From NCBI GenBank assembly GCA_018004935.1, contig JAGNBF010000049.1, forward strand, positions 1-53,466: a stretch of 53,466 nt of DNA. Reading direction: 5' to 3'. The position numbers and the translations under genes were made by a program. The notes under the pieces are model-generated. The model was not told the origin of the DNA and ran no database searches. It saw only the letters and a list, made by a program, of their open reading frames with translations. Positions 2,157 to 53,466 of the stretch are shown one piece after another; position 1 is the first letter of the stretch, and the number at the start of each line of letters is the position of its first letter. The DNA is from Chloroflexota bacterium. GTDB taxonomy: Bacteria > Chloroflexota > Anaerolineae > Promineifilales > Promineifilaceae.

Positions 2157-2260
2157 AGACCTGACAGGTTTCCGAAAACCTGTCAGGTCTAGGCGGTGCT
2201 TATTTTTGTAGGACGATTTGGTAAATCGTCCACTGGGCGATTTACCAAATCGCCCTACAT
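2157..2260. repeat. Two dispersed hairpin repeats between the divergent genes
   Basis: 2157-2190 is a perfect 15-bp stem around CCGA (AGACCTGACAGGTTT arm). 2205-2260 is a longer palindrome of the GTAGGGCGATTTGGTAAATCG type. The first type recurs at 11894-11927, 15532-15553 (truncated), 16789-16822 and 32106-32136 (degenerate). The second recurs at 16607-16663 and 45953-46010. The second overlaps the upstream ATG of the LysM gene frame, which is one reason for choosing the later GTG start there. Confidence 0.85.
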
Positions 2261-2277
2261 TTTCGCGGGAGGAAACG

Positions 2278-4986
2278 GTGAGAGAAAAGACCAGTGCTGG
2301 GCCAACAGAAATCTATACCGTGCAGAAGGGGGATCATCTAACCCGAATAGCCAGGGCTTTCGCCGCTGATGGGGCGATGGAACTGTCTGAGTTTGTGGCT
2401 GAGATTTACGCGCTGAATAAAGATGTGATTGGCAACGATAAGAATATCCTTCGCCCCGGCCAGGTGTTGCACATTCCTGTTGGTTCACGGTCAGGCGTTC
2501 TCGCGGCCGCAACCCAGCCCCACCCCATCACCGTTGGCGCCATCATCCACCTACAAAGCCAACTCCCCGACGGCGGCTATCTGGAAGCACGCGGCTCCGT
2601 TACCGATAAACCGGTGATCACCCAATGGCCGAACCCCCATATTCGCGCCTTTGTCGCCACCCACAAGAGCAAAAATCGGTCTAAGGGTTCCGGTAGTTGG
2701 AAAATTATTTCGGCCACGGGCAAACCAGAAGGCCAACCTTTGACCGATGGCGACACCATTTATTTGCTCAACATGAACCCCAACGTTGGTTATCTCGATA
2801 CCTTTGAATGGGTCAGAAACCTGGGGCCATTTAAGCAGTACACAACGATGACCATCGGCGTATTTACATCAAACGTTCCCCGGAGAGGGGATGGTGTTTC
2901 GGGCATCTGGACGATTCGCTCGCAGGTGGGCAACGCCCCCAGCCAAAAGGAAATCGTAACGGGCGAAACGATATACCTGGAGAATTTGTTTCCTGGAGCC
3001 GGTTATCTCGTCGCCCATGGTGACGTGGCGGCCCATCCCATGTTCAGCGATTATGACGGTCAGCACCGGTTTGTGTTTACAACCCCGCTGAGGGATGAGG
3101 ATAAGGTTGCCTACAGTTGGGCCATTACCTTAAGCGACCAGCCATCGGCCAAACAGTCCCATACCTACCATGTGTGGCAGGAGCAAGAGGGCACGTTGGT
3201 AGAAGCGGGTGCGTTCAGCTTCATGCTGCCGCACAACCAACCTATTCTCTCTCTGGATGTCCAATCAACGGATAAGGGGCAAACTTTTACCGGGGTGGCC
3301 AATAAGACGATAGCGGTTGACGGGGAGTGGATCGCGGCCGCGTACCAATATCGCGTCGTTGCTTCATCAGACAAGAATGAACCCCTCCATTGGCAGGTGG
3401 GGGGGCAGGTGGCCCAGCTCATCTTGGAACGAAACGAGTCCCAGGCCCGTCGCGTGGATGGTACGATTACCTATCCGGCACAAGGGGCTATCAAGTTTAA
3501 GGCGATTCAGGCTCTGGCCCTCAATTGGCAACAATTTTTTGAGGCCACGCTGTGGGAATCACGTATCAACAAGATCAATGTGGCCTTGCAAGCGGCCGGG
3601 TTGGAGCTTAAACACATTCTCGCCGCACCCGATGGTCTGAACGCGGCCGCGGACGAAATCACCTTTCTCAAAAATCAACTGGCCCACATGCAACAGCTAC
3701 AGCTAGACATGGTCGCGTTTTGGCAACTCTTTAGCCAGGCCGCCATGAAACAGATCAACCCGTTGCATCAAAACGGTTTCCTGCCCCCCGTCCATCTGAT
3801 CAAGGCCTGTTTTCAAGAATTTACCCGCGATTTTGAAATCATCCAGCGGGCCATGCAACAGCGCCGCTGGCTGGATGGGGCGGACGGGGAAAGCCCCAAC
3901 AATGCCCAACCCCAAAGTTTGATTGTCACCGACAAATTAGCCGCTATGGCCCTGACCCCCTTTCAACATCTGATCACCGATTCGTCGGCGGTCATTCCCA
4001 TCACCTATTTCAGCCAGAAAATACACATTCGCCGCCTGCCCTACGTGGATAAATTCGTCCTGGTGGGCATCACCTACGATTTATCCATAGATTCCTTGTT
4101 AGAGACTTCACTGCCTTTTGAGCTGATGGCGATTCCCCATGAGGTGGGTCACTTCATCTACCATCACGGCAAGCTAACGCCGGACAAAACCCATGCCTAC
4201 ACCTCGTTGGCCCAACTATGCGCGAGCGAAACGTTCTTGAATCACCCCTACCAGCGTTGGTTTGAAGAGATTTTTGCCGATTTATACGGCTGTATGGTGG
4301 CTGGCCCGCTAACGGCTTTAGGCTTATTGGCTTTGCTGGCGACCGGGGACAAAGAGCGATTGCTGATGGATGACGACGATCATCCCACCCCCATTTTGCG
4401 CCCCTTCTTCTTATCGGAAATGTTGCGGATTTTAAGTGACCGAAATGACCACTGGGACGCCGGGGCAACAACGGCTAAACCGTATGATTTTTCCGAGGTT
4501 GCCAAGAGTCTCGATGCCAATTGGACGACGATGTTGGAACGATGGGGTTTTGTGACGGAAGGGGTCACGGATGGTCGGCCCGCCAGAATTCAGATTCCCA
4601 GCCAGACCCAGGCCCATTGGGAAGGGTTCATCAATGTGGAAACGGCCATTGTGAATGTCAGAAAAATTATTGTGGCCTTTGTAGATGTGTTGAGTCACGC
4701 CTACCGCCAACGTGAAAAGAAACCATTGTTGCCCTGGTGCCAGGAACGAGGCGGGTTGGATGAGTACATCGAAGAAATCAAAGCCCTGCCGCGCTCCCAA
4801 CGGCTGGCCGCCAAAAAAGCCGTCCTCTTGGCCGAAGCCAGGGAGCCAGAGCAAAGAAAACAGATCATCACCAACAGGCTCCCGGGTTTAGAGGAAAACC
4901 AGGACGAACTCAGTCGCACCGTCTTTCTGGACATCTTAAAAGGATGGGAAGACAGCGGGCCACATGTCACCGGCGGCCACGATTAG
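2278..4986 (+). CDS. LysM-domain protein with central repeats and HExxH zinc-metallopeptidase domain
   Basis: The protein has 902 residues from GTG 2278, preceded by GGGAGG five bases upstream. The in-frame ATG at 2218 lies inside a dispersed hairpin repeat and has no ribosome site. Residues about 12-72 form a LysM domain (YTVQKGDHLTRIARAF...LRPGQVLHIP). Three successive modules follow, each with G-x-x-I-x-L then GYL and closed by a W-x-I (GSWKI, GIWTI, SWAI), suggesting a beta-trefoil-like carbohydrate-binding fold. The C-terminal half has HEVGH at 621-625 and a downstream EEIFAD at about 663-668, a gluzincin-type zinc site (His621, His625, with Glu664 or Asp668 as third ligand). No signal peptide is visible, so export would need another route. 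Substrate unknown. Confidence 0.8.
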   Translation: MREKTSAGPTEIYTVQKGDHLTRIARAFAADGAMELSEFVAEIYALNKDVIGNDKNILRPGQVLHIPVGSRSGVLAAATQPHPITVGAIIHLQSQLPDGGYLEARGSVTDKPVITQWPNPHIRAFVATHKSKNRSKGSGSWKIISATGKPEGQPLTDGDTIYLLNMNPNVGYLDTFEWVRNLGPFKQYTTMTIGVFTSNVPRRGDGVSGIWTIRSQVGNAPSQKEIVTGETIYLENLFPGAGYLVAHGDVAAHPMFSDYDGQHRFVFTTPLRDEDKVAYSWAITLSDQPSAKQSHTYHVWQEQEGTLVEAGAFSFMLPHNQPILSLDVQSTDKGQTFTGVANKTIAVDGEWIAAAYQYRVVASSDKNEPLHWQVGGQVAQLILERNESQARRVDGTITYPAQGAIKFKAIQALALNWQQFFEATLWESRINKINVALQAAGLELKHILAAPDGLNAAADEITFLKNQLAHMQQLQLDMVAFWQLFSQAAMKQINPLHQNGFLPPVHLIKACFQEFTRDFEIIQRAMQQRRWLDGADGESPNNAQPQSLIVTDKLAAMALTPFQHLITDSSAVIPITYFSQKIHIRRLPYVDKFVLVGITYDLSIDSLLETSLPFELMAIPHEVGHFIYHHGKLTPDKTHAYTSLAQLCASETFLNHPYQRWFEEIFADLYGCMVAGPLTALGLLALLATGDKERLLMDDDDHPTPILRPFFLSEMLRILSDRNDHWDAGATTAKPYDFSEVAKSLDANWTTMLERWGFVTEGVTDGRPARIQIPSQTQAHWEGFINVETAIVNVRKIIVAFVDVLSHAYRQREKKPLLPWCQERGGLDEYIEEIKALPRSQRLAAKKAVLLAEAREPEQRKQIITNRLPGLEENQDELSRTVFLDILKGWEDSGPHVTGGHD

Positions 4987-5169: not shown

Positions 5170-8067
5170 TTATTGGAGCCGTTCGGCCAGGCGGGGATTG
5201 TTCAGGGTAAGATTTAACTGGCGGGCCTGTTGTTTGGCGTTGAGGCTTTGGGCCATGTCCCCCATTTCAGCATACAGCTGGGACAGATAGTAGTAAGAAT
5301 AAGCCTGCTCAAACAGGTCGCCTAGCTCACAGAAGATGTCTAACCCGGCCAGGAGTAAGGGTAGCCCCTGGTGTGGCTCTTGTCTGGCCTGATGGAGCAG
5401 ACCTAATTGCGTCTTCACCAGCCCTTCCAATCGCAAACTGCCCAAGATGTGGAACAGGTCTAAACATTCATATCCCACCGCCAGGGCCGCCTCAAACTGC
5501 TGTTGTTTTTTGTGCAGGAGGAGCTTTTCATAGAGCGCGGCCGCGTACTCCCCCTTATCCTCTTGCTGGCGACTGACCTTCAGGGCCTCCACCAGACACA
5601 CCTCAGCCGCCAGATAATCTCCCGCCATGCTTTGCACCCGCGCCAGGTAACGCCATGTTTCGATGGTGGTAGACGACACCGGCAGTGGCCGCTGTAGGGC
5701 CAGCGCTTGTTCCAAACAGGTCTGGGCCGTCTGGAAATCACGGTTTTGTTTGAAGTGGTAAACGGCGATGAGGTTCAAATTTTTGGCGACCCCCAGTCCA
5801 TCTTGCTCCTCGGCAAAAATTCGTTTCGAGGCCTCAAACTGCGCCAGGGCTTCCTCATCCCGCCCCTGTTCACTCAGGATACGACCATACAGATATTCGG
5901 CCTGGGCAATACCCAGGCTGTCTTCCCACCGGGTCAACGTCTGCATCGCGGCCGCAAGGTGATCCGTCGCGGCCGCATACGCATTCAACTCCATCTCAAC
6001 TTCACCCAGGCGCAGGAGCAGACGGGCCAGGGCGAGGTCATCTGGCAGGGCCGCGGCCGCATCCAACGCCAGCGTCAACCCCTCCCGCATCTCATTAAAC
6101 CGAATCTGCCGGAACCACGGCTCAGCCAACACCTGCACCCAATCCAACACCCACTGCCACTCGGCCAGGGAATGTGCTTTGGTTATCGCGGCCGCAAAAT
6201 TGCGCCACTCCGGTTGTAACTCTGCATAATCGGCCCGGTGGTCGTGGGCGAATTGATAAAAGTAGCGGACAAACGCCCGGTTCAGTTCTGGGGTGCGGCT
6301 TGCCAGTTTGTCGGCCGCGAACTGGCGCACCAGGCTGTGCAAACCGTACCGTTCCGGCTCGTGCTGTTGTTGCAGGAGCGATTTTTCACCCAGCAAATCC
6401 AGGTCGAACGGGGTGGCCTGGGCTATCTCTGCGGCCGCGTCTGCCGTAAAGGTAGTGGGGAAAACGGACAGGGCCGCCAGCACCGCCTGTTCCCCAGGGG
6501 TGAGCAACTGCCACGAGGTCTCGAACACCGCCCGCATACTGCGATGGCGCGGGTCCACGTCGCGCAGGCGGGTGCTGAGGAAGTCGAGCGACTCACCGAT
6601 AGATGCAATAATTTGGGCCAGGGAACGGCGGCGTACCCACGCGGCCGCGAGGGCAATGCCCAGGGGCGAACCATCTACCAGATCGCAGATGTGGTGAACC
6701 TGGGGCAGGTTGGCGGCGGTCACGGCAAAATCGTCACGGGCCATGCGGCCGCGGTCGGCAAACAGGGACGCGGCCGCGCTCATACCCGTTTCCCCTCGCG
6801 GCAACCCATCCAGCAGGATCACCGATTCGGCCTGGAAGTTGAGCGGCTCGCGGGAAGTCGCCAGAATCGCTACCTGGGGTGCTCGCCGCAACCATTCGGG
6901 AATAAAACCAAGTTCATCCAGGGCCACCTCGCAATTGTCCAGGATGAGCAACAGCCGTTTGTCGCGCAAGCGGGCCAACACCTGTTCCCCGGTCAACTGT
7001 TTGCCTGCCTGCCCCAACCCCATCACCTCACCCACCGCCATTTTGATGCGCTCGGTGTCCCCTTCCAGGGCATCCAGCGAGACAAACCAGACCCCATCGG
7101 GAAAGCTCAGCTTGACCTGCCTGCCCACCTCAACGGCCAGGCGTGTTTTGCCGATGCCCCCCGTGCCCACCAGGGTGATGAGGCGATAGGTGGGGTCAAC
7201 CAGCCGTTGCAGGAGTTGGGTCTGTTCGGTGGTGCGGCCAAAAAACAGGCCGGTGGGTAAGGGCAAATTGTCCGGGATGGCGGCCTGACCGGGCACAACC
7301 AGGGCGTGATCAGAGATTTGTTGGTAGAGCTGTTGCGTCGCCGCCTCTGGTTCAACCCCCAATTCATCACCTAATTTTTCCGCGCACAAAACGTACTGGG
7401 CGAGGGCGGCATTGCGATCCCCCAGGTGGGCGTGCGCCTGCATCAAGGCGCGGTGGGCCGCTTCCAACCAGGGTTCCAGACGGAGTTGCCGTTGGGCGAT
7501 GTCGAGCACGGCGGCCCACTCCCCCCGCGCCATTCGGGCCTCACGCAGAAGAGTCATCGCCTCTAACACCCTCTGTTGGACATGCTCGCGTTGGGCGATG
7601 AGCCAGGTTTCCCAGGTGTCGCTGGGGAAGTTCAGCCCGGCCAGGAACTCGCCGCGCACGAAATCTACCGCTTCTTGCAGATGGGCCAGGCAGGTGGGAC
7701 AGCCCGCCAACTGCCGGTGGGGATGGCTCTCCACGGTGGTCAGGAGCCGCCCAAACTTTGTCACATCTACCCCGATGTCGTCGCCGGTGCGGAGCGTGAT
7801 TTGTTTGCGGTCAATGTCCAACCAGGGGGGAATGGCGTTTTCGTCGCCTATGGCATCACGCAGGCGGGTGAGCCGGTTGCGGAGATAGGTGAGGGCTTCG
7901 GTGTCGGGGCGGTCTGGGGAGAGCAGACCGGCGAGGGTGTCGCGGCGTTGGGGGATGCCCTGATGGGCGGCCAGGTAGGCCAGCAACACACGCTCGGCAT
8001 CGGTACGGAACGCGGCCGCGGCCGCGCCCACACGCACCTGCAATGGCCCTAACAACTCAATCCTCAA
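5170..8067 (-). CDS. SARP/BTAD-NB-ARC-TPR transcriptional regulator (AfsR/MalT-like STAND protein)
   Basis: The 965-residue protein starts at TTG 8067 with GAGGGG six bases upstream. Residues about 1-90 form an OmpR/SARP-type winged helix (MRIELLGPLQVRVG...LTYLRNRLTRLRDAIG) and about 95-245 a bacterial transcriptional activation domain. An NB-ARC ATPase follows, with Walker A GTGGIGKT (Lys307) and Walker B RLLLILDN. The C-terminal third is TPR-like. By analogy with AfsR and MalT it should be an ATP-switched activator whose TPR end senses a ligand. It is divergent from the small peptide gene at 8508 across a 440-bp spacer. The gene carries many GCGGCCGC octamers, often read as Ala-Ala-Ala. Ligand and target are not visible. 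Confidence 0.88.
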   Translation of the reverse strand: MRIELLGPLQVRVGAAAAAFRTDAERVLLAYLAAHQGIPQRRDTLAGLLSPDRPDTEALTYLRNRLTRLRDAIGDENAIPPWLDIDRKQITLRTGDDIGVDVTKFGRLLTTVESHPHRQLAGCPTCLAHLQEAVDFVRGEFLAGLNFPSDTWETWLIAQREHVQQRVLEAMTLLREARMARGEWAAVLDIAQRQLRLEPWLEAAHRALMQAHAHLGDRNAALAQYVLCAEKLGDELGVEPEAATQQLYQQISDHALVVPGQAAIPDNLPLPTGLFFGRTTEQTQLLQRLVDPTYRLITLVGTGGIGKTRLAVEVGRQVKLSFPDGVWFVSLDALEGDTERIKMAVGEVMGLGQAGKQLTGEQVLARLRDKRLLLILDNCEVALDELGFIPEWLRRAPQVAILATSREPLNFQAESVILLDGLPRGETGMSAAASLFADRGRMARDDFAVTAANLPQVHHICDLVDGSPLGIALAAAWVRRRSLAQIIASIGESLDFLSTRLRDVDPRHRSMRAVFETSWQLLTPGEQAVLAALSVFPTTFTADAAAEIAQATPFDLDLLGEKSLLQQQHEPERYGLHSLVRQFAADKLASRTPELNRAFVRYFYQFAHDHRADYAELQPEWRNFAAAITKAHSLAEWQWVLDWVQVLAEPWFRQIRFNEMREGLTLALDAAAALPDDLALARLLLRLGEVEMELNAYAAATDHLAAAMQTLTRWEDSLGIAQAEYLYGRILSEQGRDEEALAQFEASKRIFAEEQDGLGVAKNLNLIAVYHFKQNRDFQTAQTCLEQALALQRPLPVSSTTIETWRYLARVQSMAGDYLAAEVCLVEALKVSRQQEDKGEYAAALYEKLLLHKKQQQFEAALAVGYECLDLFHILGSLRLEGLVKTQLGLLHQARQEPHQGLPLLLAGLDIFCELGDLFEQAYSYYYLSQLYAEMGDMAQSLNAKQQARQLNLTLNNPRLAERLQ

Positions 8068-8507
8068 GATTCGCCCCTCTCTGAGGAGTAAGGCATCCCC
8101 AGATGCCGGTGGTGGTGCGCCGTTCGCACGTGGGCGTGCTCACTCCTCTCTATATCCGTGTTAATTCAAATCGTATCTATTCAGGTGCGAGAACTCATTC
8201 CCACGCTCGGCGTGGGAATGCCCTCTGGGACGCTCTGCGTCCTATAAGACGCGGAGCGTCACCGGGAGCATTCCACGCCGAGCGTGGAACGAGAGTAGGA
8301 AACAACTTGCCCTCACCCCCCAACCCCTCTCCCGATGCGGGAGAGGGGAGCAGTTCCCTCTCCCCAAGGGAGAGGGCTAGGGTGAGGGGCTGTACAGCCT
8401 TCCTTTGGGTGCGGTATGGGTGCGAGGCCCCCGTATTTTGTGGTCATCAACGCGGCTCCTTCAAAGCCGCAAGAAAAACCAGATCACATAACTCACGGAG
8501 GTCTCTC
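8068..8507. other. Divergent spacer between regulator and peptide gene
   Basis: The spacer holds a CGTGGGAATG/CATTCCACG palindromic repeat (about 8190-8295; relatives at 38618-38670 and 48104-48165) and a GC-rich repeat (8308-8398: CCCTCACCCC... mirrored by ...GGGTGAGGGG). A short hairpin (GCGGCT 8452-8457 with AGCCGC 8465-8470) lies just before the peptide gene. No confident sigma-70 promoter was found. Confidence 0.6.
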
Positions 8508-8624
8508 ATGAAACAGTTCAAAAATTGGAAAGCCATTGTCGTTGCCAGCATCGTCCCCCTGCTTATCGCCCTGCAACCCGCCGTCACCTACGCTTGCAGT
8601 GTTGGCACACACACGGGCTGTTAA
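8508..8624 (+). CDS. Small secreted cysteine-bracketed peptide (38 aa), candidate signal or bacteriocin-like peptide
   Basis: The ATG at 8508 follows a consensus GGAGG (8497-8501) with six-base spacing, strong support for a gene this short. It encodes 38 residues: a basic N-terminus (MKQFKNWK), a hydrophobic core (AIVVASIVPLLIALQ) and a likely signal-peptidase site after TYA. Cleavage there would release CSVGTHTGC, nine residues with a cysteine at each end that could close a disulfide or thioether ring. The sequence before Cys is not a good lipobox (TYAC). A perfect 15-bp hairpin follows the stop. It is divergent from one SARP-STAND gene and convergent with another, so a peptide signal read by a TPR sensor is an attractive inference. 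I do not recognise the family. Confidence 0.7.
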   Translation: MKQFKNWKAIVVASIVPLLIALQPAVTYACSVGTHTGC

Positions 8625-8649: not shown

Positions 8650-8685
8650 AAGATTGGTTCAATCTTCATTGATTGAACCAATCTT
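8650..8685 (+). terminator. Perfect 15-bp hairpin after the peptide gene
   Basis: AAGATTGGTTCAATC, a 6-nt loop (TTCATT) and the exact complement lie 25 bases after the peptide stop. There is no long T-run after it, so it may terminate, stabilise the short mRNA, or serve as a protein-binding palindrome. Confidence 0.55.
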
Positions 8686-8708: not shown

Positions 8709-8732
8709 GAACCTGTCATTCAGACAGGTTCT
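8709..8732. terminator. Hairpin at convergent gene ends
   Basis: AACCTGTC and GACAGGTT pair around ATTCA, followed on the plus strand by CTATTTGTT. It abuts the stop codon of the minus-strand SARP gene and follows the peptide gene, a position typical of a bidirectional terminator. Confidence 0.5.
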
Positions 8733-11700
8733 ATTTGTTGGTGCTGGTTGGCACATCTAAATAGTTGACGATAGCCCTGGCACGTTCTAGAAAACGTGGA
8801 TTTTGGATTTCTCTGGCTAACGCAACCGCTTCCGCACCATACTGTCCCGCTTCTTTGGCCCTGATTGTGCCTAAAAGCTCGGCCATACCAATTAGGGCAT
8901 CACACTCAGCGTATCTTAAGTTGTTTTCGCGGGCGATTTTTAGCGCGTGACTGTACAGAGTTTGTGCCCGTTCGAAATTGCCTTGCTCCTTTTGGTTTTC
9001 GGCCAAGTCAATCATGGCCATTGCCGTTGAAGAGCGATTCCCGATTAACTCTGCAATGCGTAAGCCTTGCTCCAAATTTTCGCGGGCCAACTCTAATTCG
9101 CCCTGTAAATGATAATTTTTGCCGAGGTTAATGAAAATGTCCCCTTGCCCTACCAGATTGCCGCTGGTGGTGGCTAACTCAAGACCAAGTTGCAAATAAT
9201 ATTGAGCACCTAAATAGTCGCCTTGTTCAGTAGCAATTATGCTGAGGTTGTTGACTAGAGCGGATTGGCGATGGTGATCACCTAACTGCTCACAGATGAC
9301 CTGTGCTTTCTCCCAGGCATCTTGAGCGGCTTTTAGCTCCCCTTGATGGTAGCAGACAAGACCAATACTGTTGAGACTGCCATTCAGGGCCTGGGCATTG
9401 CCTGTTTTTTGCCAGGCGGCACAGGCCTGTTGTAGATGATCGTGGGCGATGGTGTAGCGGCTTTGGATGTCGTTGATGATGCCCAGATGATGGTGACACC
9501 AGCCAATGATGAGTGTGGCGTCAATAGCCTGAGCAACGGTGAGGGCGTGGTTGAGTTTGGCCGCGGCCGCGTCGTACTCCCCCAACCGCCACAACGATTC
9601 CCCCCACAACACCTGGCCCATCCCCTCAGCCCACCGATCCCCCCCTTGCGCCGCCAGCTTTAATGCCGTTTGCACCGCTTGCATGGCCGGACGATATTGG
9701 CCGAGCCGGTTCTGGAACCGCGCCCGCTCCAACCCGGCATGGGTCGCCAGAGTGAGGCCAGCAGTTCCCCACGCCGTAGCCGTGCTGACGGTGGTGTGCA
9801 TGATGGCTTCCGCTTCATGGGCCAGACCGCGCAGTTGATAATAAATCGAGAGTGAGGTGAGCGCGTCAAACAACAGGTCGGCTTTACCCTCGGCCAAACC
9901 CGTCTGCCAGGCCAGCCGCACATTGTCCATGTCTGGTTCAACGACGTTGATGGAATGTTGCGGCGCACTTTTTTGCAGGGGTTCGGTGTGTTGCGCCAGC
10001 AGGGTGAGGTAGTAGTGCGCGTGTTGGGATGGGGTTGGATCGGTGGGGGGCAGGTGCGCGGCCGCATACGCCCGGATGATGGGGTGAAGGGTGTAGCGAT
10101 CAGTCGTGGCCTGGTAGGTTAATAACGACTTATCACCGAGCGCAGTGATTTGGTCTGCGGCCGCGTGTGTGATTTGTTGCGCGGCTGTCTGTGTAAAACC
10201 GCCCCGAAACAACGCCAGTCGCGCCAGACATTGTTGCAGGGCCGGGGTCAAGGTGCGCCACGACATCTCAAAAACAACATGCAGACCCCGATGGCGTTCT
10301 GGCACATCACGCAGAGAGGTGGTGAGGGCATCAAAACCATCACGCAAACGATCCGCCACCACCCGTGGGCTGGTATGGCGGGTTAAAGCGGCCGCCAACT
10401 CAATCGCCAGCGGCAACCCTTCTACCATCCGGCAGATGGTACGAACGGCGAGCAAATCATCCGCGGCCACCGGCTCATGTTGTTGTTGGGCATACCGCGC
10501 CCCAAACAGTTCCACCGCTTCCGAGGGCAATTCATCGCTGTCGCTGGGCGGATAACTCAACCCGTTCAAGGCCACCGTCCATTCGGCCCGCAGGCGTAAC
10601 GCCTCCCGCGATGTCACCAGCAGTTGCACCGTTTCGCACTGCTGGATCATCTCCTGCACCAACTGAATCCCCCCCAGCAGATGTTCAAAGTTATCTAGCA
10701 CCAGCAAAATCTGTTTGTATTTCAGGTGGTTGAGCAGTTGTTGGGCGGGCGTTTCTGAGCCAGTGAGCCGCATGTCGAGAACGGTGGCGATTTCTACGGC
10801 TATCGCTTCGGCCACATCGTCATCATCGGGGTCAATATCGGCCAGTTCCACCAGCCAGACGCCATCCGGGTATTGGCGCAGACGACTGCGGGCGATGGTG
10901 GTGGCGAGGCGTGTCTTACCCACGCCCCCCTGCCCCACCAGGGTGACAACTCGGCACCAGGGCTGATCGAGGCGGATATAAATCTCTTGCTGGACGGTTT
11001 GGCGGCCAAAGAATTGATCGGTTTCCGGGGGCAGGTTGTGCCGCACGGTGGAGGCCCGGTAGGCCGGGGTGGCCGGTGGGGGTTGGATGGTTTTGATCAA
11101 TGCCGTCAGGGGGGCGGGTGGCTCAATGCCCAATTCGGTCCGTAGGAGATGGGCGCAATCGTCGTAATGGGTGAGGGCTTCGCGGCCGCGACCCGCTTTA
11201 AGCAATAGTTGAATGAGCAACGTGTGCGCCGTTTCATCCAGCGCATCTACCTGGAGCCAACGCCGGGCGACCTGGATACCATCGTCCACCTGGCCCGACT
11301 TGAGCCGGTATTGCCCCAGCCGGTCATACGCGGCGATGACCTGACGGCGAATCTGTTCACGGGTCTGCGTCGCCCACGCATTGAATTGGGGGGCATCGGG
11401 CAGGGAGAAGTGGGCCAGGAACTCACCCTGATAGGTGGCGAGGGTGGTGTGCAGGGCGGTCGCGGCCGCGTCCGAATCTACGGGTCCCAGGTTGGTTAAT
11501 GTCTGCACCAGGCGCAACGAATCAACATCTTGCTGATTCTCCGTTGTCAGGGACACCGTTTTTTGGGTGATCAGCAACTCATCACCCACTTGCTTTCGCA
11601 GGCGCGACAGGATGGTGCGTAAATTGGACAACGATTGTTTGGTGGAACGGCTCTCCCAGAGCAAATCGGCCAGAAAATCACGCGAATGGGTTTGGCCGGT

Positions 11701-11808
11701 ATGGGCCAGGTAGATGAGGAGCGCGGCTTCTTTTTGGCTACGAAACTGGCTCAGGGGCACGCCGTCTAAAGACAGCACCACTTGACCGAGCAGTGAAAAG
11801 GATAACAT
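8731..11808 (-). CDS. SARP/BTAD-NB-ARC-TPR transcriptional regulator
   Basis: This is a 1025-residue paralogue in architecture of the regulator at 5170-8067. It has an N-terminal winged helix (MLSFSLLGQVVLSLDGVPLSQF...LSNLRTILSRLRKQVGD), a BTAD helical domain to about 245, NB-ARC with Walker A GQGGVGKT (Lys298) and Walker B KQILLVLDNFE, and a long C-terminal TPR array (about 620-1015) with clear repeats such as ALNGSLNSIGLVCYHQGELKAAQ. ATG 11808 is used; only a weak GAGAG precedes it. It probably couples ligand binding on the TPRs to ATP-dependent oligomerisation and DNA binding. Its 3' end faces the small peptide gene. Target unknown. Confidence 0.88.
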   Translation of the reverse strand: MLSFSLLGQVVLSLDGVPLSQFRSQKEAALLIYLAHTGQTHSRDFLADLLWESRSTKQSLSNLRTILSRLRKQVGDELLITQKTVSLTTENQQDVDSLRLVQTLTNLGPVDSDAAATALHTTLATYQGEFLAHFSLPDAPQFNAWATQTREQIRRQVIAAYDRLGQYRLKSGQVDDGIQVARRWLQVDALDETAHTLLIQLLLKAGRGREALTHYDDCAHLLRTELGIEPPAPLTALIKTIQPPPATPAYRASTVRHNLPPETDQFFGRQTVQQEIYIRLDQPWCRVVTLVGQGGVGKTRLATTIARSRLRQYPDGVWLVELADIDPDDDDVAEAIAVEIATVLDMRLTGSETPAQQLLNHLKYKQILLVLDNFEHLLGGIQLVQEMIQQCETVQLLVTSREALRLRAEWTVALNGLSYPPSDSDELPSEAVELFGARYAQQQHEPVAADDLLAVRTICRMVEGLPLAIELAAALTRHTSPRVVADRLRDGFDALTTSLRDVPERHRGLHVVFEMSWRTLTPALQQCLARLALFRGGFTQTAAQQITHAAADQITALGDKSLLTYQATTDRYTLHPIIRAYAAAHLPPTDPTPSQHAHYYLTLLAQHTEPLQKSAPQHSINVVEPDMDNVRLAWQTGLAEGKADLLFDALTSLSIYYQLRGLAHEAEAIMHTTVSTATAWGTAGLTLATHAGLERARFQNRLGQYRPAMQAVQTALKLAAQGGDRWAEGMGQVLWGESLWRLGEYDAAAAKLNHALTVAQAIDATLIIGWCHHHLGIINDIQSRYTIAHDHLQQACAAWQKTGNAQALNGSLNSIGLVCYHQGELKAAQDAWEKAQVICEQLGDHHRQSALVNNLSIIATEQGDYLGAQYYLQLGLELATTSGNLVGQGDIFINLGKNYHLQGELELARENLEQGLRIAELIGNRSSTAMAMIDLAENQKEQGNFERAQTLYSHALKIARENNLRYAECDALIGMAELLGTIRAKEAGQYGAEAVALAREIQNPRFLERARAIVNYLDVPTSTNK

Positions 11809-12887: not shown

Positions 12888-15500
12888 ATGTCACTCATTC
12901 AAATTGACATTCTCGATTGGATTCCCGAAACGGTGCGTCAACAAACCCTGGATGGCTGTGTGGATTTTCTCGCCACCCGGCTGGACGGCGTCAAAGAGGG
13001 CAAACTCAGCCACACCATCACCCAGTTTCGCTCCGACTACACCCTGCAAACCGCTATCAACAACGGACTGAAACAGGCAACCGACCGCTTCATCCAGGAG
13101 TACATGGCAACCGATGAAGACCTGGTACTTGCCATTGCCCGCGACCCCGCTTTCTGGCAGTCCGCCTCTGTCCGGCAAGCCCTTGTAACATTGGTCGAAA
13201 ACCCCACCCTCTATCTGGAAGGGCAACAGACCCAGGTGGCCCGTGGTTTTGTGGATGTCCTGCACCAACGCATCAACCGGGAACGAGTAGACCAGGCTGT
13301 CACTTTCTACCTGCGCTGTGTAGCCGAAGCCCTGTGGCATCTGGAGCCGTTCCGCCCTGTCTACCAGATGTACCTGCACCGGATCAGTGCCGAACAGGCT
13401 ACCACCATGGTTCAGGAGCTGCGTGGCTTGCGGGCCGAACTACGCGAGACACTGCTCCTGGCGGTACGGCAGTCCGAGGCAACCCCACAACTGGCTTCTC
13501 CTGCAAAACCCGCCCTGCCACCCCCAACGTTCGTACGCCACAACCTGCCCCAACGCGATTACGGTCAGTTTGTCGGGCGCACCGCCGAACTGGCTCAGGT
13601 CGCCCGCATCCTGCGCCCTTATCCCCATTCCCAATACCCTATCGTCACCATTGATGGGGTGGGGGGGATTGGCAAAAGCGCATTGGCGCTGGAAATCGCC
13701 CACCGTTATCTGCAAAGTTTCACCCAGATACCGGTTGAAGAACGGTTTGCGGCCATTATCTGGGTCAGTGCCAAACAGACAATGCTGACGGCCGAAGGCA
13801 TCAAACGCCGCCGCCAGCCCATTGAAACATTGGACGATATTTTCGCCACCATCGCCATCACGCTGGAACAGCTTGACATTAATCAGGCGCAACCCCCAGC
13901 CCAGGAACAACTGGTGCGCCAGGCTTTAACCCGGCAACGCACCCTTCTCATTGTGGATAATCTGGAAACAGTAGATGATGAAGCGGTTTTGACCTTCCTG
14001 CGTGAAATCCCCGCCCCCACCAAAGTCATCGTCACGACCCGCCACCGGCTGGATGTGGCTTATCCGGTGCGCCTGGTGGGGATGCCCTGGGAAGAAGCCA
14101 GCCAGCTCATTGCCCAGGAAGCCCGGAAGCGGGCGGTGCAGTTACAAACAAACGAAAGGCAACGGCTGTACGACCGGACGGGGGGTGTGCCCCTGGCGAT
14201 TGTCTGGAGCGTGGCCCAGATGGGGTATGGGTATGGCATCCAGGCGGTTCTCCATCGTTTGGGTGAACCGACCAGTGATCTGGTTCGTTTCTGTTTTGAA
14301 AATGCGCTCATGCACATTCAAGGTCAACCGGCGCACGCGTTACTCATGGCCTTGTCGCTTTTTACGCCCGATGGCGGCCGCGAAGCGTTGGGGGTTGTGG
14401 CTGATCTGCTCGTTCTGGATAGGGATGAGGGGCTGGTGCGGCTTGAAAAACTCTCGCTGGTGAACAAAAACGAAGACCGCTTCTCGTTTCTGCCGGTGAC
14501 GCGGGTGTTCGCGGCCGCGGAACTTGAAAAAGATCATGTTCGTTACCTGCATTTTGGCCGCCGCTGGGTAGATTATCTCAAACAACAATACATCATCCCC
14601 GACTACGGGGCCGACCGCTACTACCGCCTCTTCCTGGGCAAACACACCTCGCCCGCCGATGGGCCAAGCCTGCTGGCGGCGATTGAGTGGGCTTACCAGC
14701 ACGGCACGGCTGAGGACATTTTTGTGCTAACGATTGCGGCCGCGGATTACCTGGATGTCACGGGGCAATGGCAGGCACTCCTCGAACTCATTGACCAGAG
14801 CCTTTCCCTGGCCCACAGCAGTGACAATCCCACGGCGGTGGGTCGTCTGGCGGACATCAAGGGGTGGCAGTTAGAGCAGAGAGGGGAGTACGCGGCCGCG
14901 GAGGCCAGTTTCCGCGAAGGGTTGGAGCATTACCGTGAGGTGGGAGATGAGGAAGCCGAAGCGGTTTTCCTGCAACGGCTGGCCGGTATCCAGCGCAAAT
15001 ATGGGCATTTTGACGCGGCCGCGGACCTTATCGAAGAAGCCTGGGCGATTGCCGCAAGGCTCAGTCAGGCGGATTTGAAAGCGCTCATCCACACCCAACG
15101 GGGCAAGTTAGAACGGGATAGAGGCAACTGGACAGCAAGCTGGCACTACTTTTCTCTGGTGCAGGATTGGTTTGAACAACGCACCGAACAAACGCCTCTG
15201 GATGAAGAGCTGGCGGTGGGCACGTGGGGGCATCTGGCCTTTGTTGCCTACCAACTGGGTCGCCCGGAAGAAGCCAGGGAACTTTGTTTGCGGAGTCTCT
15301 CTTATTTTGAGGGGCGGGGGACTAAAGGGTATTACGCCGCACTCCTATACCGGTTGGCCCTGGCCGAAGAAGCGTTGGGTAATCGCGCCTCAGCCCTTCA
15401 GCATGCGACTGAGGCTCTGGAATGGTTTACCCGTTTGGGGATGAAACCGGACGTTCCGGCGGCAGAGGTACTTGTGACAACATTAAACAGTGACTCTTAA
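12888..15500 (+). CDS. NB-ARC-TPR STAND protein with an unrecognised helical N-terminal domain
   Basis: The 870-residue protein has no SARP domain, unlike its two neighbours. Residues 1 to about 195 are mostly helical (MSLIQIDILDWIPETVRQ...) and match no family I can name. A proline-rich linker (PAKPALPPPT) and FVGRTAEL lead into NB-ARC: Walker A GVGGIGKS (Lys263), WVSAK, Walker B TLLIVDNLE, and VIVTTRHR as the sensor. Residues about 600-860 are TPRs. In STAND proteins the N-terminal domain is usually the effector or its adaptor, so this could be a signalling or defence protein; that is inference. ATG 12888 has only weak GTGAG upstream. Several Ala-Ala-Ala triplets in the TPRs are encoded by GCGGCCGC. 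Confidence 0.85.
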   Translation: MSLIQIDILDWIPETVRQQTLDGCVDFLATRLDGVKEGKLSHTITQFRSDYTLQTAINNGLKQATDRFIQEYMATDEDLVLAIARDPAFWQSASVRQALVTLVENPTLYLEGQQTQVARGFVDVLHQRINRERVDQAVTFYLRCVAEALWHLEPFRPVYQMYLHRISAEQATTMVQELRGLRAELRETLLLAVRQSEATPQLASPAKPALPPPTFVRHNLPQRDYGQFVGRTAELAQVARILRPYPHSQYPIVTIDGVGGIGKSALALEIAHRYLQSFTQIPVEERFAAIIWVSAKQTMLTAEGIKRRRQPIETLDDIFATIAITLEQLDINQAQPPAQEQLVRQALTRQRTLLIVDNLETVDDEAVLTFLREIPAPTKVIVTTRHRLDVAYPVRLVGMPWEEASQLIAQEARKRAVQLQTNERQRLYDRTGGVPLAIVWSVAQMGYGYGIQAVLHRLGEPTSDLVRFCFENALMHIQGQPAHALLMALSLFTPDGGREALGVVADLLVLDRDEGLVRLEKLSLVNKNEDRFSFLPVTRVFAAAELEKDHVRYLHFGRRWVDYLKQQYIIPDYGADRYYRLFLGKHTSPADGPSLLAAIEWAYQHGTAEDIFVLTIAAADYLDVTGQWQALLELIDQSLSLAHSSDNPTAVGRLADIKGWQLEQRGEYAAAEASFREGLEHYREVGDEEAEAVFLQRLAGIQRKYGHFDAAADLIEEAWAIAARLSQADLKALIHTQRGKLERDRGNWTASWHYFSLVQDWFEQRTEQTPLDEELAVGTWGHLAFVAYQLGRPEEARELCLRSLSYFEGRGTKGYYAALLYRLALAEEALGNRASALQHATEALEWFTRLGMKPDVPAAEVLVTTLNSDS

Positions 15501-16997: not shown

Positions 16998-19900
16998 ATG
17001 ACAAATAATTCCATCCCCTCAGGCATTAGCAAGCGTTACATATTGCACGAGCATTTAGGTACGGGCGGCATGGGTACTGTCTATCGTGTGACAGATCGTC
17101 TGACAGGGCAAATTGTCGCACTAAAACGAGTGACTGCCGCACCTGAAGAACTTGCCTTTGCCTCTAAAAGAGACAGCAATTCTAATCTCCTGGCCCTTGC
17201 CGGTGAGTTTCGCACCCTTTCCTCACTGCGACATCCCAATATCATTAGCGTGCTCGACTATGGCTTTGATGAGGTGCACCGCCCTTACTTCACAATGGAA
17301 TATCTCCCCAATGCCCAACCGATTGTTGAGGCAAGTAGAGGTGCAATTCGTCAGGTGCAACTTGAATTAATCATCAAAATATTGCAGGCTTTAGTTTGCC
17401 TCCATCGGCGTGGGATTCTTCATCGCGACTTGAAACCTGGTAATGTCTTGGTATCTAACAAACAGTTGAAGGTGGTAGATTTTGGTCTTTCTGTAGAGAC
17501 GAATACCGACTCGGTGAAGCATATTACTCAATCAACCGCCGGAACATTCGCCTATATGGCACCAGAATTGTTTCGTGGTGCTCCCGTTAGTCGAGCCTCG
17601 GACTTATATGCTGTTGGCGTTATCGCCTATGAACTGTTTGTTGGACATCATCCTTTTAGGACTAACAATATCGCTCTTTTGGTTAATGAAATCTTAAATA
17701 AACCTGTGAATGTATATAACCTTGGACTAGAAGTGGAGTTGGCTATGGTGTTGCGCCGTCTACTAGCAAAGACCGAGGAGGCGCGGTTTAGTGATGCCAA
17801 TGACGTTATTAAAGCTTTATGTCAGGCAACCAACTTGCCACTTCCGCCAGAGACTGAGGCTATTCGTGAGAGTTTCTTACAGTCAGCGAAATTTGTTGGA
17901 CGCAAAGCCGAGTTTGGCGAACTTGTTGATGTATTGGATTCAGTGTTGGATGGACATGGTAGTAGCCGATTGGTAGGAGGCGAAAGTGGTGTCGGTAAAT
18001 CACGCCTTTTGGATGAGCTACGAACATTCGCCCTGGTGAAAGGAGCCATTGTATTGCGCGGACAAGCGGTCAGCGAAGGGGGTCGCGTCTTCCAGATATG
18101 GCGAGACATGCTCCCTTTATTGTGCCTGCTCAGCAGTCTTGACGATTCTGAAGCAAGTATTCTCAAGCCACTAATTCCCGATATTAATGATTTGCTGGGC
18201 CGGGAAATCGCAGATCCACCACCGTTAGATCCGCAAGCCACTCAAGTCCGTTTGTTTGCTCTTATTACAGAGTTGTTCCGACGCCAGCATCACCCCATGG
18301 TGCTAATCCTGGAAGACTTACAATGGGCTGGTAGCGGAAGCATAGGGCTACTTAATCATATCATCCCAGCGGTACCCAATATGCCCCTATTGTTGATCGG
18401 GACCTATCGTGATGATGAATCTCCTCATCTACCAAAACATTTACCAGGGGTCCAAGTCGTAAAACTTTCCCGTCTCGATAAAGCGAGCATTATGGAGTTA
18501 AGTGCTTCGATCCTGGGTGAAACTGCCCATGATCCGCAGATTGTGGACCTATTACAGCGTGAGACAGAGGGCATTCCGTTCTTTCTGGTGGAGATAGTAC
18601 GAGCATTAGCAGATCATGCGGGAGAACTTAATCAGATCGGACGCGGCTTTCTACCCGAAAAACTCCTCGCCGGAGGAATCAGGCAAATAATCGAAGGCCG
18701 CCTGAGCCGTGTTTCTGAAGAAATCCGCTACTTGCTTCAGATAGCGGCGGTCATTGGGCGCGAGTTGGATTTGAATGTGTTGCAGACCTTCAGTGGGCCA
18801 GAAGATTTAGAGTCATGGCTTACCCTGTGTGCCAGCGTGGGCATATTGGAGGTACAAGAGAATCGCTGGCGTTTCACACATGACAAACTACGCGAATATT
18901 TATTGGAAGAATTGGATGCAGAAGTACGGCCTATTCTTCATCGCCGTGCGGCTGAAGCCATGGAAGATGTTTCCTCGGATAGTATCAGACATGCGGCGAT
19001 CTTGGCCCATCTCTGGCGTGTGGCTGGAGTAGAAGAGAAAGAATTGTATTACTGTGAAGTAGCTGGCCAACAGGAGCTTACGAACAGTGTGTACGCTGAA
19101 GGTATCCGATTCTTGCAACGTGCTCTGGAGTTGGTATTGAAGAAAGTTGATACATCAGAAAGGGCAGAACATGAGTTAAGAGTGCAACTCTTGTTAGGTC
19201 CGGCACTAATGAATCATTATGGGCATAGTCACCCGATTGTAGCGGATACTTATTCGCGGGCGGCTCAACTCGGTCAAGAAATTCAACAGTCTGAAACAGT
19301 GTTTCGGGTGGTGTGGGGGTTATGGGCCAATGCGGGAGTGGGTGGTAACTTGCCCGTTGCCCAACAGATGGTGCGCCGGTTGTTTGATGTAGCGCAACAA
19401 ACTGGTCAACCCTTTCATTATATGGAGGCTAATCATGCTGGTTGGTCAACTGCCATTTGGCAAGGGGCGACCCGTGCCGCCGAAGAGTACTATCAAAACG
19501 GTATGGCACACTATAACAAGGAGCAGTATCAGCAAGACTGTATTTCGTTAACCGGGCATGATGCTGGTGTGTGTGGTTGGGCGTTGGGTGCCATGAATGT
19601 TTGGTTGTTAGGTTATCCAACGCGTGCTTTACAGAGGTCTATTGAGGGGCATAGTCATTCTCTCGAAGTACCGCATTCGTTTATTCGTAGTCATGGCTTG
19701 TTTGGTAGTGCGGTTGTAGGCTGGTTGACTGAAGATTTGATACAGCTTTCACAATATACTGAGGCGTTTTTGGATCTCTCGGCAAAAAATAAATTGACAT
19801 TTTTTATGATGCTTTCTCGCTTATGTCATGGCTGGTATCTTACACAAACCGGTCACTTTCAATCAGGAATTGACTTGTTGAATGGGGCGGCTGAAGTGAT

Positions 19901-20324
19901 GCACCAGGCTAAAATTTATGGCCCACGCCCGTTGTTGATCAGTTGCTTTATGGATGTGTACTTGCGTGCCGGGCTGATTATGGATGGTCTTCGAGTGTTT
20001 CTCAAAGAACAATCAGAATACCCGTTAATGGGAGAGCGTATCATGGAATCCGAAATCCATCGCCTGCGTGGTGAGTTGCTTCTGGTGCAGGGGGATGTAC
20101 AACAGGCTGAGCAAACCTTTCAGCAAGCTTTGCTCATTGCTCGTCGGCAAGAGGCCAAATCTCTTGAGCTACGCGCCGCTATGAGCTTGGCGCGGTTGTG
20201 CCAGGCTCAGAATAAGCGTCATGAAGGTTATCAAATTCTTTCCTCAGTCTATACCTGGTTTACGGAAGGTTTCGCTACCACAGATTTGCAGGCGGCTAAG
20301 GTATTGCTAGAAATGTTGTCATAA
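16998..20324 (+). CDS. Ser/Thr protein kinase fused to AAA ATPase and TPR-like region
   Basis: The 1108-residue protein has an AAGGGAG ribosome site eight bases before ATG 16998. Residues 14-275 form a complete Hanks-type kinase: glycine loop GTGGMGTVY (21-29), Lys43, HRDLKPGN (catalytic Asp144), DFG (Asp161) and APE. FVGRKAEF then opens an AAA_16-type ATPase with Walker A GGESGVGKS (Lys334) and LILEDLQWA as Walker B. About 650-1108 is helical and TPR-like, as in multidomain kinases such as PknK and in MalT-type sensors. No membrane segment, so it is cytoplasmic. The gene has no GCGGCCGC and is AT-richer than its neighbours, which suggests later acquisition. Targets unknown. Confidence 0.88.
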   Translation: MTNNSIPSGISKRYILHEHLGTGGMGTVYRVTDRLTGQIVALKRVTAAPEELAFASKRDSNSNLLALAGEFRTLSSLRHPNIISVLDYGFDEVHRPYFTMEYLPNAQPIVEASRGAIRQVQLELIIKILQALVCLHRRGILHRDLKPGNVLVSNKQLKVVDFGLSVETNTDSVKHITQSTAGTFAYMAPELFRGAPVSRASDLYAVGVIAYELFVGHHPFRTNNIALLVNEILNKPVNVYNLGLEVELAMVLRRLLAKTEEARFSDANDVIKALCQATNLPLPPETEAIRESFLQSAKFVGRKAEFGELVDVLDSVLDGHGSSRLVGGESGVGKSRLLDELRTFALVKGAIVLRGQAVSEGGRVFQIWRDMLPLLCLLSSLDDSEASILKPLIPDINDLLGREIADPPPLDPQATQVRLFALITELFRRQHHPMVLILEDLQWAGSGSIGLLNHIIPAVPNMPLLLIGTYRDDESPHLPKHLPGVQVVKLSRLDKASIMELSASILGETAHDPQIVDLLQRETEGIPFFLVEIVRALADHAGELNQIGRGFLPEKLLAGGIRQIIEGRLSRVSEEIRYLLQIAAVIGRELDLNVLQTFSGPEDLESWLTLCASVGILEVQENRWRFTHDKLREYLLEELDAEVRPILHRRAAEAMEDVSSDSIRHAAILAHLWRVAGVEEKELYYCEVAGQQELTNSVYAEGIRFLQRALELVLKKVDTSERAEHELRVQLLLGPALMNHYGHSHPIVADTYSRAAQLGQEIQQSETVFRVVWGLWANAGVGGNLPVAQQMVRRLFDVAQQTGQPFHYMEANHAGWSTAIWQGATRAAEEYYQNGMAHYNKEQYQQDCISLTGHDAGVCGWALGAMNVWLLGYPTRALQRSIEGHSHSLEVPHSFIRSHGLFGSAVVGWLTEDLIQLSQYTEAFLDLSAKNKLTFFMMLSRLCHGWYLTQTGHFQSGIDLLNGAAEVMHQAKIYGPRPLLISCFMDVYLRAGLIMDGLRVFLKEQSEYPLMGERIMESEIHRLRGELLLVQGDVQQAEQTFQQALLIARRQEAKSLELRAAMSLARLCQAQNKRHEGYQILSSVYTWFTEGFATTDLQAAKVLLEMLS

Positions 20325-52500: not shown

Positions 52501-53413
52501 CCGCAAGCTCCAATGCCAGCCGTGTTTTGCCCATGCCACCAGGGCCAACCAGGGTGAGCAGGCGGCAGGTTGGGTCACTCAGCCGTTGGTGCAGATCAGA
52601 GAGTTCCCCCACCCGGCCAATGAACGGGGTCATGGGGGTGGGCAAAGGGGATGGGGAAGATGGGGAGCCACTCGCGGCCGCACGGATACGCTCGTACAAG
52701 GTGTGGGTTGGTGGGGCCGGTTCCGTGCCAAAAGCCTCTTGCAAGGTGCGGCGGCAGAGGTCGTACTGTTGGAGCGCGGCCGCGATCTGTCCAGAACGGG
52801 CCAGAGCCAGCATTAGATGGCGGTGGCTTTCTTCGTGCCAGGGGTCGAGGCGGAGCAGGTGGGTGGCCGCTTCGCCAGCCAGGTCGAACTGGTTGTGCTG
52901 GAGATACCAGGTGGAGAGGGTGTGCAGGGTGTGCAAGGCCAGTTCGCGCCAGTGGATGCGTTGGGCGATGGCCCAGTCGTCAAATTCCAGGGCGTCCCGC
53001 ACCTGAAAACCGGCCAGGAAGTCACCATGGTAGAGCGCGGCCGCGCACCGAAGTTGTTCCGCCTGGGCCGCTGTTTGCAGAGGGGTGTTGTCGCGGATGA
53101 GCCGGTCAAACTGGGCCACATCGAGAACATAGGGCTGGGCGGTGTTAAATTCGACGGAATCCCGGCTGATGTTCAGGTGGGCTTCGAGCAGTTTGCGTAA
53201 GTTGGAAAGGGCCTGGCGCAGATTATTTTTGGCATCGGCGTCGGGCAGGTCGCCCCAGAAGAGGGTCGCGAGGGTGTCACGGGAATGCGGCCGCGGTTCC
53301 ACCGCCAGGTAAGCCAGCAACGCCGGAACCTTATTGGAAATGAAATCGGTCAGGGGAGTCTCCGCCTGCGCGATGTGTAAACCACCGAATAAACGAATCT
53401 GCAATTCGGTCAT
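49502..53413 (-). CDS. SARP/BTAD-NB-ARC-TPR regulator fused to a C-terminal Ser/Thr kinase
   Basis: The 1303-residue protein is chosen from ATG 53413 (MTELQIRLFGGLHIAQ); a TTG eight codons earlier is possible, and neither has a strong ribosome site. Order: SARP-type winged helix (about 1-95), BTAD (about 98-245), NB-ARC with Walker A GPGGMGKT (Lys296) and Walker B MLLVLDNLE, TPR array (about 600-960), a linker, then a complete Hanks kinase (about 1040-1303): GGMGEVYRG, Lys1069, HRDLKPAN (Asp1164), DFG (Asp1182), SPEA. No membrane segment. One polypeptide thus combines DNA binding, a STAND switch, a TPR sensor and phosphorylation. I know the parts separately; this order looks unusual. Confidence 0.9.
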   Translation of the reverse strand: MTELQIRLFGGLHIAQAETPLTDFISNKVPALLAYLAVEPRPHSRDTLATLFWGDLPDADAKNNLRQALSNLRKLLEAHLNISRDSVEFNTAQPYVLDVAQFDRLIRDNTPLQTAAQAEQLRCAAALYHGDFLAGFQVRDALEFDDWAIAQRIHWRELALHTLHTLSTWYLQHNQFDLAGEAATHLLRLDPWHEESHRHLMLALARSGQIAAALQQYDLCRRTLQEAFGTEPAPPTHTLYERIRAAASGSPSSPSPLPTPMTPFIGRVGELSDLHQRLSDPTCRLLTLVGPGGMGKTRLALELAAAYQPLCLNGVRFIPLAGVNPATPDALRFALVDALALKLAGSLPLPQQLINHLAHKEMLLVLDNLEHLLEQSEWLNELLQQAPLIKILATSQERLNLSGEWVVELDGLPQSEAEQLFISLARRAQNDFALTEENAAAIQHICQLVDGLPLGLELASAWVHVLPCADIAQEIATNLDFLTSTRRNMPTRQRSLRAVFDHSWQLLTPPEQTAFASLSVFRGSFSREAAHGVTGITIPTLASLVDKSLLRRQANGRYELHERLRQYADQQLSLSARQPLQNRHAQYFLNWLHKETEHLNGPQETATFRALITDHANIRAAWDWAVQERDLPLLEKGLHLLRVFYNEQGRYREGMAWLEKTAQMLEEVIAQEPDNLPARQMLGQVQGRLAGFYLWGGMRPRCEPLFLSALETARQFADPGELGLTLLNYGYYTVLGGDYPNAKTQFRASLDYYRRAEDSGGVADALSALGAVGNITGELVEARQYLEESVAIGREMRDEHSLRTSLVNLGNVFYLQADYEQAKIYYEEVLPLCQKAEDRSAEAITLCNLSSIAYQAKAYDEAERLMLAGAKTFLEINSLQFYLQAQATLASIHTAMGEYEQARAELQWALNKALTEPIPHIVPQVLYETGCLYLALGRTTEAMVLLYWVLANEMSLAEHRQEAQKRLAEAEADLPAGQITALKEQAKTVEARTVLGQLTRDKNSLTPIPTNPPLHDTTPLPHTPISRRESNPPQLVSSRFEVGDLLARGGMGEVYRGRDTQTNQPVAIKRLLPHLIVPGSEMITRFKREAEVLRQLNHPNIVKLLDTVGEGENLMIVMEYVAGGSLRDWLDKTPLLPLPQVLTIALELADALARTHHRHIVHRDLKPANVLIAPDGSPRLTDFGIARLAQGHTHLTTQGATLGTVAYMSPEALKGEDLDARTDVWSFGVMVIEMLCGRNPFDKLHFAPTLAAILQDPLPDVVQARPGLPPALAELLQTLLVRDRSERQGSMRAVAAALEQISV

Positions 53414-53466
53414 GATGTTATGAGTTTCGAGTTCCAACTAAGCCATGACCACGTAGGGTTTTAGAA

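Follow-up and report, generated by a model that had tools for sequence, protein, structure and literature searches.

A putative peptide signalling module with AfsR-type SARP-NB-ARC-TPR regulators in Chloroflexota

In the RRNPP(A) systems (Rap-Phr, NprR-NprX, PlcR-PapR, Rgg-SHP and AimR), the gene of a small exported propeptide adjoins that of a cytoplasmic TPR regulator, in which an HTH_3 domain or the Rap helical bundle is joined directly to the TPRs (HTH/phosphatase + TPR). AfsR of Streptomyces, a large SARP built of SARP, NB-ARC/NOD and TPR parts, activates afsS, a short gene, from an operator of 11-bp repeats placed just upstream of the -10 element; its product has been described as a regulator of secondary metabolism and not as an exported peptide. 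The activators MalT and GutR also contain a STAND switch, in which an inducer is bound by the sensor domain, and their DNA-binding domain differs from the SARP type. These inducers are maltotriose and glucitol, while it is stated as unknown whether any inducer binds the TPR domain of AfsR (PMC10936776). In SARP operators, direct repeats recur at a distance of 11 or 22 bp, and 8 bp separate the 3′ repeat from the -10 element (PMC10936776); SARP sites have also been reported as heptamers with 4-nt spacers, e.g. the heptameric direct repeats at the single target promoter of PimR and other SARP-LAL proteins (PMC5930380). The target of the latter is a regulator of antibiotic genes and no peptide is linked to them.

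The window analysed in this study, i.e. the whole stretch of 53,466 bp, derives from an 8.0-Mb genome of a Chloroflexota bacterium. It carries a locus in which a 38-codon gene is placed between two genes encoding SARP-NB-ARC-TPR proteins, designated regulators A and B. As in the RRNPP(A) systems, a small propeptide gene, with a leader whose sequence suggests export, adjoins TPR regulators, it is apparently targeted by its own circuit, and several paralogous pairs occur in one genome; the best bacterial matches to the TPR fold of B include RRNPP receptors. In contrast to the RRNPP(A) receptors, A and B combine a SARP/BTAD domain, an NB-ARC ATPase and TPRs, and neither has an HTH_3 domain or a Rap bundle joined directly to the TPRs; moreover, there are two regulators per peptide, the peptide contains two Cys residues, and the host belongs to the Chloroflexota. 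The locus would work like an RRNPP system and yet be no member of that group, since its DNA-binding and ATPase architecture differ. It shares with AfsR-AfsS the regulator architecture, the position of the operator and a short target gene, with the SARP-LAL proteins the repeats and the single target promoter, and with MalT and GutR the STAND switch. In our opinion, it is probably a self-contained peptide signalling module, with autoinduction via one operator (box 1) and output via another (box 2).

The peptide precursor gene (8508-8624, + strand) encodes MKQFKNWKAIVVASIVPLLIALQPAVTYACSVGTHTGC, composed of a 29-residue signal-like leader and the C-terminal sequence CSVGTHTGC. The original prediction described 38 codons with a perfect ribosome site and a perfect hairpin after the stop codon, and all of these features proved correct. 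The site (GGAGG; 8497-8501, +) is located 6 nt before the ATG, and its GGAG core is retained in all seven genomes that carry the peptide. The first hairpin (13 bp; 8652-8664/8671-8683) is not followed by a long T run. The second (8709-8731) precedes the sequence TATTT, an arrangement that would suit a terminator shared by convergent genes; both hairpins of this convergent intergenic stretch (8652-8683 and 8709-8731) were read directly from the sequence.

A 38-codon ORF alone constitutes weak evidence, and could in principle have arisen by chance in an intergenic region. This explanation is already refuted here, and we give it practically no weight, in view of the seven orthologues, the purifying selection, the dedicated promoter and the lack of any match in 40 shuffles. 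The pN/pS ratio among the seven orthologues ranges from 0.25 to 0.67 (0.31-0.60 for the window peptide against each of the other six) and is <1 in 21/21 pairs, the exact values being rough because synonymous sites are near saturation in several of them. The frame and its ribosome site, whose loss or neutral drift would have counted against the original prediction, have persisted at every assembled locus that retains both regulators. A search for the peptide motif in 154 kb of intergenic sequence flanking SARP genes gave 11 real matches and none in 40 dinucleotide shuffles; the control is clean, while the count of 11 is descriptive, since the motif was defined after the members had been seen. 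The small ORF is therefore real. A mechanically called ORF of 173 aa (8103-8624) was rejected as a gene, because the same frame in the relative G015 opens just 5 codons upstream. Searches of Pfam and NCBIfam with the peptide matched no family, and a tblastn search of a plasmid collection gave no match; a 38-codon gene absent from family libraries is nevertheless recognisable by its operator. A GC-rich dispersed repeat of ~88 bp (~8310-8398), which ends just upstream of box 1, has dozens of copies in the genome and was not seen at the corresponding place in aligned relatives.

Counting that of the window, the seven genomes represent six genera of one family and a Caldilineaceae MAG; all named relatives are MAGs. 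Protein and profile searches revealed the orthologues of the five other genera (G015, G002, G018, G054 and G044), and the Caldilineaceae locus was found by its promoter pattern. A class-wide profile search of 396 genomes independently found the same place in G296, a genome of another family; above noise it gave nothing but core members. Regulator A (5170-8067, -) is divergent from the peptide gene and regulator B (8731-11808, -) convergent with it, exactly as had been predicted, and this order is common to the core loci of two families. A zincin-like gene and box 2 are located beside A wherever the contig reaches far enough, except in G044, where the zincin-like gene has no adjacent box 2. The contig of G018 ends inside A, and A of G002 is split between contigs; in both cases the parts present match A. 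Genome G066 contains two A-like genes (46-50%) with no assembled peptide, and G018 a second B without A or peptide.

The leaders of the seven orthologues align end to end, and their tails (CSVGTHTGC, CSAAGSHGGC, CDAGQNGHCGG, CDWAAGHCGG, CDAGSHTGCV, CATGSHCGG and, in Caldilineaceae, GGCGGHTGC) each contain two Cys and one His. The C-x7-C end proposed originally is not a fixed feature, as the spacing varies from C-x5-C to C-x8-C. Judging from the leader, the peptide is probably exported; signal peptidase may cut after TYA to release CSVGTHTGC, which is probably closed by a disulfide. The first Cys of the Caldilineaceae tail lies two residues past the predicted cut, and some paralogous peptides (described below) have no clean AxA site, e.g. 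...IGTTMC.

Two other readings of this precursor deserve consideration. In six of the seven core members a Cys directly follows the hydrophobic stretch, as might be seen if the product were retained in the envelope, as a membrane peptide or small lipoprotein, and informed A and B about export or the state of the envelope. We consider this highly improbable: the core peptides contain TYAC, TFAC, SFSC or VFAGGC at this point, and not the lipobox [LVI][ASTVI][GAS]C, which appears as L[VA]AC in the box-2 lipoproteins of these genomes, and the Caldilineaceae Cys is placed two residues later. The conserved leader and the shorter, variable tail also recall a RiPP precursor, whose leader would guide an enzyme encoded elsewhere to yield a modified natural product under the SARP regulators. 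SARPs commonly control biosynthetic genes, and the NCBIfam STAND-TPR model of a cyclophane RiPP cluster (HaaT) gives hits in the TPR parts of both regulators that fall far short of its cut-off. However, the leader is built like a Sec signal peptide and not like a recognition leader, and the conserved neighbourhood contains no RiPP enzyme, which makes a RiPP origin very unlikely.

The promoter of the peptide gene contains box 1, TGGGTGCG-GTA-TGGGTGCG (8406-8424, +), whose second repeat is followed after 9 nt by the -10-like element TATTTT (8434-8439, +). We predict that it is a SARP-type operator of this gene. Both boxes have an 11-bp period and 9 nt between the 8-mer repeat and the -10-like hexamer, in agreement with the SARP operator pattern, in which direct repeats recur every 11 bp and ~8 bp separate the 3′ repeat from the -10. 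The box-1 consensus is TGGGTGCG-N3-TGGGTGCG-N9-TA(T)NNT, the second repeat across the seven promoters being [TG]GGGTGCG. Both GGGTGCG heptamers are perfect in 7/7 peptide genomes, with exactly one site per genome, and the hexamer has T1 and A2 in all seven and T6 in six; these genomes contain no site with one mismatch, and sites with two mismatches are below control level. Among 52 genomes of the family, the exact box occurs at eight sites (reversed control, 0), six at the peptide promoter and two in unrelated sequence. The extended pattern matched seven stretches in 84,980 species genomes (the window's own genome possibly having been omitted), of which six are the peptide locus. Matches in G051, G008 and a Streptomyces were rejected, as no such peptide is encoded downstream.

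Between the promoter and the ribosome site there is a hairpin, GCGGCT...AGCCGC (8452-8470, +), with C-G to U-A changes in the relatives; permuting the species gives pairing as good as that observed in 24 of 5040 cases. The inverted repeat outside it, TGTGGT...ACCACA (TGTGGTC...GATCACA in the window, 8439-8485), also shows matching changes in relatives (47/5040 permutations). The latter overlaps the expected transcription start, so it may be a DNA and not an RNA element.

Box 2, TGGAAGCG-TTT-TGGAAGCA (2029-2047, -), differs by one mismatch from the consensus TGGAAGCG-N3-TGGAAGCG-N9-TATAAT and is followed, 9 nt after its second repeat, by the -10-like sequence GAAAAT (2014-2019, -). It is placed upstream of the zincin-like gene but faces away from it. 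A first reading, in which it faced this (protease) gene, was rejected, since the spacing to the -10 and the leaders encoded downstream indicate that it faces the divergent gene. The exact core GCTTCCA-N4-GCTTCCA is present in nine of the 52 family genomes, i.e. in 7/7 with a B orthologue (52-68% identity; B of G010 is truncated at a contig end) and in 2/45 others (G001 and G047), a co-occurrence with a chance probability of 2.7e-7. The G047 match, which lacks a -10 and has different flanks, looks like noise and was rejected. When mismatches were allowed, ten genomes yielded 23 real and 4 control sites. In 14 of the 15 distinct exact sites, A2 and T6 are invariant in the hexamer 9 nt downstream (consensus TATAAT), although the -10 formed no part of the query.

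The box-2 target in the window is a gene encoding a lipoprotein, MKKNLIFIVLLLFALLALVAC..., with a CarboxypepD_reg domain (73-1947, -); its G054 orthologue (64% identical, AbfB-bearing) is likewise located behind box 2. The genes behind this box in other genomes encode (i) a lipoprotein in G018, (ii) two giants in G044, one of the FG-GAP/Ig type and one, behind a site with two mismatches, cadherin-like, (iii) beta-helix, VWA and exported proteins in G015, (iv) a propeller/PKD protein in G002 and (v) a Fib_succ_major protein in Caldilineaceae. Many of the targets have signal or lipoprotein leaders. Several have no visible signal peptide, such as DUF4332, VWA or PMP-repeat proteins (L232 1510-2379; L238 212-1654; L051 1-2153), and these may exit by another route or act inside the cell.

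The zincin-like protein (2218-4986, +) contains the motifs IPHEVGHFIY and WFEEIFADLYGC, preceded by an N-terminal LysM and OAA-lectin-like region. Its gene is found on the far side of A in G000, G015, G054, G044 and Caldilineaceae, and homologues are also located beside box 2 in G002 and G010. The sequence HE[VIA]GH followed by W[CF]EEIF[AS]D or EEIF[AS]D is conserved in all five homologues that were read; zincin metalloproteases have HExxH and a third ligand further downstream. The catalytic part has no Pfam match and the protein no obvious export signal; the AlphaFold model, built from just 2 sequences, reached a pLDDT of 33. A long N-terminal extension is present in two genomes (window 2218-4986; L230 6204-9122), and the G015 homologue gave a weak MPTase-PolyVal match.

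Pfam identified BTAD, NB-ARC and TPR domains in both A and B, which corresponds to the architecture of large AfsR-type SARPs (SARP + NB-ARC/NOD + TPR). B matches AfsR structures over residues 2-590 (PDB 8k60 at 2.1e-17), and the NCBIfam AfsR model gave 2.7e-43 for B and 1.5e-25 for A, both below the equivalog cut-off. When 74 SARP-STAND proteins were placed in a tree, the regulators convergent with paralogous peptides clustered with A in a single clade (support 0.97), and B formed a separate one (support 1.0). A box-2-like site adjoins the second, B-type gene of G018 (C166), which has neither A nor a peptide, as well as a B relative in G001 (C9). On these grounds we propose B as the reader of box 2, and A as that of box 1, which stands beside it. 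A search with PADLOC revealed nothing apart from a generic TPR match.

Conservation of the TPR and SARP parts is 51.6 vs 68.7% in A and 53.1 vs 52.9% in B (four A sequences); the less conserved TPR part of A fits the idea of A as a sensor of a changing peptide. Residues 590-1025 of B were modelled by AlphaFold as a TPR superhelix (pLDDT 93), whose best structural match is LGN (Z 31), a peptide-binding TPR protein. The first bacterial matches are NprR (Z 27.6; 25.3 with NprX), RapI (26.9) and Rap with CSF (26.6). Many other TPR chains score close to these, and LGN scores above the RRNPP receptors; as TPR superhelices resemble each other, the fold is consistent with peptide binding but does not prove it. 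Regulator A of G015 (L051 4123-7062) contains one in-frame TAG, a sequencing error or the mark of a decaying copy. Near the module, the window also encodes an NB-ARC/TPR protein (12888-15500) and a Ser/Thr kinase-AAA-TPR protein (16998-20324); beside a large SARP-STAND gene at its end (49502-53437), no peptide of the core type was found.

We also scanned 68 further SARP loci of three genomes, as well as the loci of B-like genes. Paralogous SARP-STAND genes at six of these loci proved to have a peptide built alike next to them (L074, L083, L115, L081, L091 and L134), so that the core and paralogous peptides number 13 in total, the latter being distant versions with related tails. Three of the six are again placed between a divergent and a convergent regulator. 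Other repeats with an 11-bp period, including the words GCTGACG, TGACGGT and CAACGATAGTT, are present upstream in L081, L091, L134 and L074, and are less clear in L115; the upstream region of L083 contains no convincing repeat of this period. Most of the SARP genes scanned have no such peptide, and in G000 only the window locus does. A second profile, built from the paralogues, found in 52 genomes its own members, noise, one core member and nothing else. In the paralogous loci of G052 and G054, a gene for a PF03547 membrane transporter is divergent from the peptide (L081 3185-4150; L091 7117-8082), a possible exporter or importer.

In the mechanism that we propose, the 38-aa precursor would be exported by Sec and cut by signal peptidase I after TYA, and the resulting CSVGTHTGC, probably closed by a disulfide, would accumulate and then be taken back up. 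It may bind A, a STAND regulator of the AfsR type, at its TPR superhelix (and perhaps B too), releasing autoinhibition and enabling the SARP domains to dimerise on heptamer repeats with an 11-bp period just upstream of the -10. A on box 1 would increase transcription of the peptide gene (autoinduction), and B on the sister box 2 would activate the genes of lipoproteins and of large proteins that are exported or located at the surface; the zincin-like gene adjoins the promoter in question. Since box 1 occurs on the peptide gene only, a loop driven by A without B would have no other output.

The main rival holds that the peptide is itself an output: A and B would sense something else and switch on, along with the exported box-2 proteins, a peptide that acts outside the cell as an antimicrobial, a metal binder or a modifier of the surface. 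Box 1 marks the peptide gene as an ordinary SARP target, a tail with Cys and His might bind metal or serve as a small bacteriocin, and the box-2 targets are largely exported proteins. We nevertheless regard this as unlikely, given a dedicated regulator of ~1000 aa with a 38-codon gene as its only strong site, the tight linkage of the peptide to both regulators, the paralogous pairs with changed tails and changed operators, and the conserved module devoid of any immunity or modification gene. An autoinduced peptide signal is the most economical reading. It is favoured by the linkage of peptide and regulators, by an operator with a single site and by paralogous pairs in which the tails have changed; the variable Cys spacing and cut site, the generic nature of TPR superhelices, the restriction of box 1 to the peptide gene, the interruption of A in G015 and the MAG origin of all named relatives count against it. 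The circuit of peptide and STAND receptor envisaged in the original prediction is partly supported. It is strengthened by the SARP operators, present both at the peptide promoter and in front of an exported-protein regulon, by the paralogous STAND genes that have a version of the peptide next to them, and by the fold of the TPR domain, with RRNPP receptors as its best bacterial matches; A and B themselves are not RRNPP proteins.

A literature search revealed, outside subscription papers, no paper linking SARP-STAND proteins with exported peptides or SARPs with peptide pheromones, and no peptide pheromone reported for the Chloroflexota; the words Chloroflexi, SARP and NB-ARC are absent from a large RRNPP survey (PMC10075063). 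The module looks like peptide cell-to-cell signalling of a kind hitherto undescribed in this phylum. That AfsR-type SARP-NB-ARC-TPR receptors for exported two-Cys peptides constitute a new class of peptide quorum sensing is a proposition for which we judge the arguments evenly balanced. If it is true, the Chloroflexota would gain their first family of peptide pheromones, and surface and exported proteins would be controlled through several insulated channels in each genome, every channel having a separate peptide, regulator pair and operator word. Peptides would then also be suggested as ligands of other large SARP/STAND regulators, which are abundant in these Chloroflexota; three genomes contain 24 to 30 BTAD genes each. 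For the open question of the ligand of AfsR-type TPR domains (PMC10936776), the module names a candidate ligand, receptor, two operators and output regulon, and its parts are small enough to be rebuilt in a laboratory host. Wastewater plants harbour abundant filamentous Chloroflexota, which affect solid-liquid separation (PMC10746286); if some of the MAGs come from such plants, as judged from isolate names, peptide control of surface proteins would be relevant there.
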